Assembly (NCBI GenBank): GCA_018303505.1
Contig: JAGVYA010000016.1
Span: 1 to 46,803 of the forward strand
Origin: Candidatus Woesearchaeota archaeon
GTDB lineage: Archaea; Nanobdellota; Nanobdellia; Woesearchaeales; GW2011-AR4
Length of the DNA: 46,803 bases
Reading direction: 5' to 3'
Part shown: positions 2,090-9,776 of the stretch, piece after piece
Numbering within the stretch: position 1 is the first letter of the stretch
Layout: every line of letters starts with the position of its first letter
Made by a program: the position numbers and the translations under genes
Notes under the pieces: generated by a model
Databases searched by the model: none
What the model was told of the DNA's origin: nothing
The model's input: only the letters and a program-made list of their open reading frames with translations

Positions 2090-2317
2090 TTATTTCAGTA
2101 AATCCATAAATTCGTCTCTAGTCAAACCACTTTGTTTGATTATTGCTAGAAGTGTGCCTTTAGCAATTTCATCATGATTGGGTACTGTAAGTCTTCTATG
2201 CGGCTCTTCTTTATGTCGTAAAATCATATGGCTTCCAGTTTGATGATCAATTTCATAACCAATTTTGGATAAAGCTTTGACAACTTTAATACCAGAAATT
2301 ACTGGCAATTTTGGCAT
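2090..2317 (-). CDS. hicA: HicA toxin (mRNA interferase)
   Basis: PVISGIKVVKALSKIGYEIDHQTGSHMILRHKE..RRLTVPNHDEIAKGTLLAIIKQSGLTRDEF. Confidence 0.93.
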   Translation of the reverse strand: MPKLPVISGIKVVKALSKIGYEIDHQTGSHMILRHKEEPHRRLTVPNHDEIAKGTLLAIIKQSGLTRDEFMDLLK

Positions 2318-2524
2318 TTATATTTCCACCATTTCCTCGTACACAGAAGGAGGTATAGGCTCATTATGTTTTTTAAGACTTTCTAAATAACCTTTAATTG
2401 CATCTTTAACATTATTTAAAGCTTCTTTTCTGGATTTTCCCTGAGAAATGCATCCTGGCAAGGAAGGGCATTCTGCCACAAATATTCCATCCTCATCTTC
2501 CTCAACAACTACCCTGTATTTCAT
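2318..2524 (-). CDS. hicB: HicB antitoxin
   Basis: MKYRVVVEEDEDGIFVAECPSLPGCISQGKSRKEALNNVKDAIKGYLESL. Confidence 0.93.
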   Translation of the reverse strand: MKYRVVVEEDEDGIFVAECPSLPGCISQGKSRKEALNNVKDAIKGYLESLKKHNEPIPPSVYEEMVEI

Positions 2525-2595: not shown

Positions 2596-2807
2596 TGCGG
2601 AGGACAGGATTTTCGGTTTGCGAGTCTCGTAAACTCGACATTTCGAACCTGCGTAGGCACTAAGCCAATAGGTGTCTTCAAGTCATAGCGTTGAGCTGCA
2701 TGCGGCAAGCATGCTCGCTTGCAACTGCTCGTAACACCACTGCAATGCCTCGCCTAAGCTTGGACAGCAAACGCTTCTATCCCGTTTGGCCGCTCCGGCA
2801 CCTCCGC
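2596..2807 (-). tRNA. tRNA-Leu (anticodon UAG) with three predicted BHB introns: 2760-2776 (17 nt, 30/31), 2674-2752 (79 nt, 37/38), 2610-2641 (32 nt, 59/60)
   Basis: Hand-folded mature 84-nt tRNA: GCGGAGG TG CCGGAGCGGCCAAACGG G ATAGG CTTAGGA CCTAT T GGCTTAGTGCCTAC GCAGG TTCGAAT CCTGT CCTCCGC A. Acceptor 7/7, anticodon stem 5/5, T-stem 5/5 (one G-U), long variable arm, A73 discriminator. Each intron has 3-nt bulges flanking a central helix. Confidence 0.85.
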
Positions 2808-8726: not shown

Positions 8727-9776
8727 TCAGTATCTTGTTGGTCTTAAAATAATATTTTGTTCAACAGTCGGAGTTATGGAATCTGCTCTATAACGTTTTA
8801 ATCTTTCTAAGACACCTTTAAGTCGAACATAAACATTTTCTTCTCTCCTTACTGGTTTGTAAGATGCCACAAATTCTTCATTAACTAATCCTTTATTTCG
8901 TAGTGTTTCTGCAAGTCCATCATCACTCATCATCATAACTACTTTAATGAAGTCTCCTATTTTAGAATTTATTGCTATTCTCTCTGGAGCTGGATGTATA
9001 AAAGCATCCAATATACCTCCATAGCTGGGAACAGTTCTAGGTTCTAATTGATGTATAAAATCTGCACTTTCAAATGGATACGAAAGCGTAACTACTTCTT
9101 TTAAGTCTTTTTTGCTTTGAACACCAATAGTTTTTAAAGAGTCTTCTAATAAGGACGCTTTAAATAATTTTGCCCTTTTATCACCTTCTCCTGAAAGATT
9201 CACTGCTTCAACATATATTCTTCCATTGTAATCTGTAAGCGCTGAATAATCCCTATCAAAAACTATCGAAACAGTTTGCGGAATTTTTGCTAATAGTTCA
9301 GCAGGCTTAACAATCTTTAAACTTTGGCTAACTCCTTCACGGCCTTCAAGTAAAGTTTTTAAATCTGATTTTAGTTTACCTAAAAGATCGCTAATTGACA
9401 CATAAGGTTCGCCATCAATTGTTATAACATCTCTTCTTAAAATTCTTTTTTCGCGTTGTTCTAAAAGAAAACTAAGATAATTACCAAATTCATCATTAAC
9501 TTGACTATACGCTGGTCTCTTTGTTGTTAGCTCTGTTTGAATGGCAAATTCTAACTCTTGTTCAATTGGTAATGGAGTTGTAACCTCTCCTTTTGGTCTA
9601 TGGTCATCATCGTAACCACTAAAAGCAAAAGCACCTTCCTCAAATCTAGTTTTAATTCTTTTGGTCAACTCCTTTCTATCCACTTGCCAAAGTAAGTACC
9701 TCCAGAAATTATTTTCTGTAATCCCTACAAACTCTTTTGGTAGATGAATATTCAGTTCAGTGATTATTTTTACCAT
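8727..9776 (-). CDS. Hypothetical protein lying between the truncated and intact nth copies
   Basis: 349-aa ORF, no recognised motif. Confidence 0.6.
   Translation of the reverse strand: MVKIITELNIHLPKEFVGITENNFWRYLLWQVDRKELTKRIKTRFEEGAFAFSGYDDDHRPKGEVTTPLPIEQELEFAIQTELTTKRPAYSQVNDEFGNYLSFLLEQREKRILRRDVITIDGEPYVSISDLLGKLKSDLKTLLEGREGVSQSLKIVKPAELLAKIPQTVSIVFDRDYSALTDYNGRIYVEAVNLSGEGDKRAKLFKASLLEDSLKTIGVQSKKDLKEVVTLSYPFESADFIHQLEPRTVPSYGGILDAFIHPAPERIAINSKIGDFIKVVMMMSDDGLAETLRNKGLVNEEFVASYKPVRREENVYVRLKGVLERLKRYRADSITPTVEQNIILRPTRY

Follow-up and report, generated by a model that had tools for sequence, protein, structure and literature searches.

A tRNA-Leu(UAG) gene with three predicted BHB introns in a Woesearchaeota genome, and candidate BHB introns in rtcB

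In Thermoproteales, a single tRNA can carry up to three BHB introns at canonical and noncanonical positions, and similar introns are shared among different tRNAs; multi-intron tRNAs are also known from the very small archaea Nanoarchaeum equitans and ARMAN-1/2 (PMC4033280). Order dependence between closely spaced introns has been described for archaeal tRNAs (PMC8450103). Broad specificity of the splicing endonuclease EndA has been described for the (alpha-beta)2 and epsilon2 enzymes (PMC6379350) and has been tied to special loops (PMC6379350, PMC12397907). Multi-intron tRNAs are therefore not new, and Woesearchaeota is a lineage for which none was described in the literature searched.

The stretch analyzed here, referred to as the window, comprises 46,803 nt of a Candidatus Woesearchaeota genome (GCA_018303505.1, contig JAGVYA010000016.1). 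It bears a tRNA-Leu(UAG) gene that resembles the Thermoproteales genes in having three BHB introns at canonical and noncanonical positions. Unlike the Thermoproteales systems, its host is a woesearchaeon in which one alpha-type EndA gene, rather than the genes of a heterotetramer, was found, and the presence of introns varies within one genus. Multi-intron tRNAs are shared with N. equitans, whose enzyme (3iey_A) is also the nearest PDB match of this EndA, whereas neither the second, structural EndA subunit of N. equitans nor the three-unit epsilon2 EndA of ARMAN was found here.

Anatomy of the tRNA-Leu(UAG) gene and its predicted product

A sequence-only reading of the window had proposed a tRNA-Leu(UAG) interrupted by BHB introns at tRNA positions 30/31, 37/38, and 59/60. 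All of the intron and exon strings that it quoted are present on the minus strand of positions 2596 to 2807, and the gene is organized as follows (G000 denotes the window's own genome and other G numbers its relatives; arrows mark the predicted cuts):

2878-2885, minus: putative promoter-like box TTTTTAAA, lying 25 nt ahead of the first GCGGAGGT copy
2808-2852, minus: leader, 45 nt, starting with a second GCGGAGGT copy (2852-2845), with the inverse ACCTCCGC at 2826-2819
2596-2807, minus: unspliced tRNA-Leu(UAG) gene, 212 nt, from sequence and de novo intron search
2777-2807, minus: exon 1, tRNA positions 1-30, 31 nt, 100% match to query positions 1-31, continuous in G004
2760-2776, minus: intron 30/31, 17 nt, AAGCGTTTGCTGTCCAA, BHB GGAT-AG↓A..GTCC-AA↓G, inner helix AGC/GCT
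2753-2759, minus: exon 2, positions 31-37, GCTTAGG, containing the anticodon UAG
2674-2752, minus: intron 37/38, 79 nt, CTTA-GG↓C..GAAG-AC↓A
2642-2673, minus: exon 3, positions 38-59 including the long variable arm, 32 nt
2610-2641, minus: intron 59/60, 32 nt, located in the T-loop, TTCG-AA↓A..CGAA-AA↓T
2596-2609, minus: exon 4, positions 60-73, 14 nt

All three introns have archaeal BHB geometry, that is, a central helix of 4 bp flanked by two bulges of 3 nt, with the predicted cut after the second bulge base. The central helix is complete at 30/31 and 59/60 (4/4 pairs each) and has one mismatch at 37/38 (3/4). The sites differ in their surroundings: at 30/31 the outer helix amounts to a single pair, and at 59/60 the 5-bp T-stem acts as the outer helix and an adjoining inner helix is absent. 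In view of the 37/38 mismatch and the missing inner helix at 59/60, the motifs are to be regarded as partly relaxed. Minimum-energy folding of the precursor without constraints did not reproduce the 30/31 BHB in the form listed above. With three introns and a conserved product the gene is a multi-intron tRNA gene (two or more introns), and it is contiguous at 2596-2807 and thus not a split tRNA.

The gene structure was recovered independently of relatives by a de novo beam search in which BHB-like introns were removed in any combination and the resulting cloverleaf was scored. The top solution was exactly the 30/31, 37/38, and 59/60 set, with a score of 48.5 versus 43.5 for the runner-up. Among 300 dinucleotide shuffles that kept the acceptor ends, the best scores had a mean of 30.6 (sd 3.2) and a maximum of 42.5. 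Shuffling of the intron letters, with the splice sites kept in place, matched the combined central and inner pairing of the real introns with P = 0.0008 (30/31), 0.008 (37/38), and 0.03 (59/60).

The claim that splicing would yield a canonical 84-nt class II tRNA-Leu is borne out by ARAGORN, which calls the spliced 84-mer tRNA-Leu(tag), and by a continuous, intronless gene in G004 (Woesearchaeota MAG RIFCSPHIGHO2_01_FULL_38_11) that is identical to it at 83/84 positions. The product has the long variable arm, the UAG anticodon, and A73 of a class II tRNA-Leu(UAG), and the covariance model RF00005, run on the G004 copy that differs by 1 base in 84, accepts this fold at 58 bits (gathering threshold, 29). 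The unspliced gene was reported neither by ARAGORN with default settings, nor by Rfam at the gathering threshold, nor by RF00005 at E ≤ 10 across the genome. With ARAGORN and Rfam, the expectation that default annotation misses the gene is thus borne out; the archaeal mode of tRNAscan-SE might find it.

The leader is able to fold into a hairpin mimicking the acceptor strand. Its arrangement of an GCGGAGGT copy and the inverse is repeated only in G016 (L136) among the congeners inspected, and it may be a leader hairpin or the remnant of an insertion. The congeners inspected carry a box similar to TTTTTAAA approximately 22 to 25 nt ahead of the tRNA. Beside the tRNA gene, at window positions 2090-2524 on the minus strand, lie two small adjoining genes that, read by eye, resemble a HicA-HicB toxin-antitoxin pair.

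Intron sets in relatives and in other tRNA genes

We searched 40 genomes, comprising G000 and its relatives, for the spliced 84-mer. Over 15 congeners the mean exon identity in spliced alignment is 98.7%, and the introns vary in number (0 to 3), site, length, and sequence, occupying sites 15/16, 21/22, 30/31, 37/38, 54/55, and 59/60 (G008, in which the gene is broken by contig ends, was excluded from the counts). The sets are as follows:

no intron: G004
30/31: G005, G010
37/38: G015
30/31, 37/38: G009, G012, G016, G019
37/38, 54/55: G002
21/22, 37/38: G017
15/16, 37/38, 59/60: G001
15/16, 37/38, 54/55: G006
21/22, 37/38, 54/55: G013
21/22, 37/38, 59/60: G011
30/31, 37/38, 59/60: G003, G000

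The last combination also occurs in G035, from another family of the same order, with introns of just 13, 18, and 29 nt. Every genome that carries a 30/31 intron lacks an outer helix at that site, and the 37/38 site of G009 has only 2/4 central pairs. G000 and G003 share an identical 17-nt 30/31 intron, and most others at this site differ; the 59/60 intron of G000 is similar to one in G011 (L131). Exon and intron strands covary at 30/31, where GGAT is found with GTCC or ATCC, GGAC with GTCC (G030, G035), and GGCC with GGCC (G032), and at 21/22 (GGCC/GGCC, GGTC/GACT, GGCC/GGCT). The independent changes among these compensatory exon-intron pairs are few, and 37/38 and 59/60, whose exon bases are nearly invariant, show none.

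Introns turn over rapidly within the genus. Parsimony on a tree of EndA DNA gives at least five changes at 30/31, at least four at 59/60, and at least four for the pooled D-loop introns at 15/16 and 21/22, numbers that are indicative only because the tree is weakly supported (1/13 inner branches starred). The well-supported pair on that tree, G003 and G011 (100/98), differ in having a 30/31 versus a 21/22 intron in this tRNA, as well as in their rtcB intron site. The near-fixed exons with zero to three introns among congeners constitute a natural series for the study of intron gain and loss.

Several apparent matches were set aside. No credible gene was present at the G018 match. A fourth G035 intron at 5/6 was an alignment artifact, since the contiguous acceptor strand GCGGGCG pairs fully, leaving three introns; an apparent G032 intron at 62/63, read by eye, was likewise an artifact, and only 30/31 remains. 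In G014 (contig C43, minus strand, L134:140-560), only the 3′ half of tRNA-Leu(UAG) was found; it has a TTTTTAAA box of its own, a 59/60 intron of 109 nt, and a leader that contains the 3′ strand of the 37/38 BHB. This may represent a split tRNA. No 5′ half turned up in the G014 assembly, which is 77% complete; a match on contig C40 lies in an apparent protein gene, and GCGGAGGTGCCGGA is absent from G014.

Other tRNA genes of G000 are similarly rich in introns. Among 19 tRNA genes resolved, three have three introns, three have two, ten have one, and three have none. The total of about 25 introns corresponds to 1.3 per gene, compared to 0.84 in Thermoproteales and 0.21 overall (tRNAscan-SE 2.0 paper, PMC8450103), with the qualification that our survey (the window gene and loci detected with RF00005) is partial and nonrandom and takes some solutions from our own scoring alone. 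An intron density like that of Thermoproteales thus appears to extend to Woesearchaeota. Besides Leu-UAG, the three-intron genes are tRNA-Leu(CAA) (15/16, 30/31, and 37/38; G000:C35 around 8964-9160, minus strand, L042/L188) and tRNA-Lys(CUU) (12, 16, and 34 nt; G000:C6 around 8449, minus strand, L020). The D-loop intron of tRNA-Leu(CAA) resembles the tRNA-Leu(UAG) D-loop intron of G001, which suggests that introns moved between tRNAs. A second tRNA-Leu(CAA), of bacterial appearance and with a 16-nt T-loop intron, is located at G000:C66:10980 (L016).

Taken together, these observations make it very probable that the window holds a functional tRNA-Leu(UAG) gene whose three BHB introns are spliced by EndA and RtcB. 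The gene could instead be a decayed or silent copy in which the insertions are damage and another gene serves the codon. Three interruptions in so short a gene might be taken that way, silence would be compatible with the sequence, and the assembly is incomplete. This explanation is extremely unlikely, given that across the 15 congeners the exons are nearly unchanged while the introns diverge, that all of the insertions conform to BHB geometry and covariation is seen at two sites, and that the 88%-complete assembly yielded no other tRNA-Leu(UAG) gene, intact or otherwise. Rejection by covariance models, an intact copy elsewhere, and decay in relatives had each been named as grounds for abandoning the gene call, and none of them was encountered. 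It is also very unlikely that the tRNA is real and the intron set different, for example, with two introns, as in the runner-up of the de novo search, or with a fourth in the acceptor arm delimited by the duplicated GCGGAGGT. The two-intron solution alters the anticodon arm and mismatches the intronless congener gene. The promoter spacing does fit the upstream GCGGAGGT, here and in G016, but no offset of the 45-nt unit yields a convincing BHB that has a genuine inner or outer helix, and an RNase P RNA gene is present for removal of the leader.

Splicing machinery and predicted order of intron removal

As the earlier reading had advised, the EndA type was checked, and a single alpha-type gene of 201 aa with a conserved C-terminal catalytic region was found. 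Its relatives are mostly named Candidatus Woesearchaeota, many of them from groundwater, in agreement with the DPANN affiliation that had been suggested. Profile searches detected no second EndA subunit in G000, in the congeners, or in G032, a complete genome of the same order that also has a single alpha-type gene; the structural subunit gene of an (alpha-beta)2 enzyme was thus found in neither G000 nor G032. An NEQ261-like subunit should have been detectable because the EndA of G000 itself matches NEQ261 at 2e-13. Apart from noise, the extra profile matches consisted of a second EndA in G012, nearly identical to the first, and a partial copy in G002, located at the end of a contig. The EndA of G000 does not have the 10-residue insert of 2cv8_A, which probably corresponds to the crenarchaeal specificity loop (CSL), an inserted loop near the active site. 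This alpha-type enzyme would have to accept 30/31 without an outer helix and 59/60 without an adjoining inner helix, and so could serve to test the idea that broad specificity requires a second subunit or a special loop.

Genes for RtcB and RNase P RNA are also present in G000; the latter rules out life without RNase P, which the short promoter-tRNA spacing had suggested. We infer a pathway in which EndA would cut the transcript at the three sites, RtcB would join the exons into the 84-nt class II tRNA, and RNase P would remove the leader. The 59/60 intron most likely leaves independently because the T-stem is its outer helix. The 30/31 intron most likely leaves before the 37/38 intron, since it holds exon bases 25-28 (GGAT) and the anticodon stem, which is the outer helix for 37/38, forms only after its removal. 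The structural part of the earlier proposal of ordered splicing is confirmed: the outer helix of 37/38 grows from 1 to 5 pairs once 30/31 is out, and removal in the reverse order has no such effect. That 30/31 then 37/38 is the likelier order is plausible on these structural grounds.

It is conceivable, and to us somewhat less probable, that an EndA that accepts sites lacking outer helices removes the three introns in no fixed order, with no ordered pathway. Relaxed recognition must exist because the 30/31 sites lack an outer helix in all carriers and the G009 37/38 site has so few central pairs. Against removal in any order, the 37/38 outer helix of the window gene appears only when the 30/31 intron is gone, and order dependence between close introns has precedent in archaeal tRNAs (PMC8450103).

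BHB-like introns in rtcB

The rtcB gene of G000 (G000:C64:9916-11259) is interrupted by a 30-nt insert (L025:2742-2771, minus strand) that carries a TGA within the motif HWG-YGFPIGG. The insert has BHB geometry (GGGG-AT↓T..CCCT-TG↓A) and contains a long inner hairpin, its removal restores HWGYGFPIGG, and shuffling reaches the observed pairing with P = 0.0013. In rtcB, BHB-like introns occupy four sites, in G000, in seven of its congeners, and in four genomes that belong to other families (L025, L201, L203, L204, L253, L202, L205, L209, L247-L250):

site A, 30, 30, 33, 31, and 31 nt: G000, G003, G001, G012, and G010, respectively; outside the genus, G090, G060, G071
site B, 33 nt: G006, G011, G016; outside the genus, G069
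site C, 12 nt: G001, G006
site D, 32 nt: G016, G010

The introns lie in the active-site region and carry stops or frameshifts, and their removal restores the conserved protein. At site A of G060, exon and intron differ together (AAGG/CCTT versus GGGG/CCCT). No rtcB intron is present in G002, G005, G007, G013, or G015, and the gene is uninterrupted in most of 119 order-level genomes. Reading the TGA as selenocysteine or as a read-through codon was ruled out, as the insert lengths (30 to 33 nt) include non-multiples of three and removal of the insert restores the conserved protein.

According to a 2020 paper, the cbf5 mRNA intron was the sole such intron reported (PMC7714728), and unconfirmed predictions in other genes are mentioned in a paper from 2009 (PMC2738675). 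No rtcB introns were found in the literature searched. In contrast to the crenarchaeal cbf5 pre-mRNA intron, those described here are in another gene, at four or more sites, and affect the ligase needed for joining. It is reasonably probable that BHB splicing is expanded in these genomes, such that production of RtcB would need EndA and RtcB itself, in a self-dependent and possibly autoregulatory loop, and a single alpha-type EndA would handle relaxed tRNA and mRNA sites. If spliced, the rtcB introns would extend archaeal pre-mRNA splicing to another gene and link synthesis of the ligase to its own activity, and we regard them as a larger surprise than the three-intron tRNA gene itself. Default annotation would overlook such tRNAs and read rtcB as broken.

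A different interruption is found in G019:C18:40122-42944 (L207/L210), where a long in-frame insert directly follows the DINC motif of rtcB and 992 codons are open; this insert is probably an intein. Similar long rtcB frames are present in G049, G099, G100, G107, G132, and G136.
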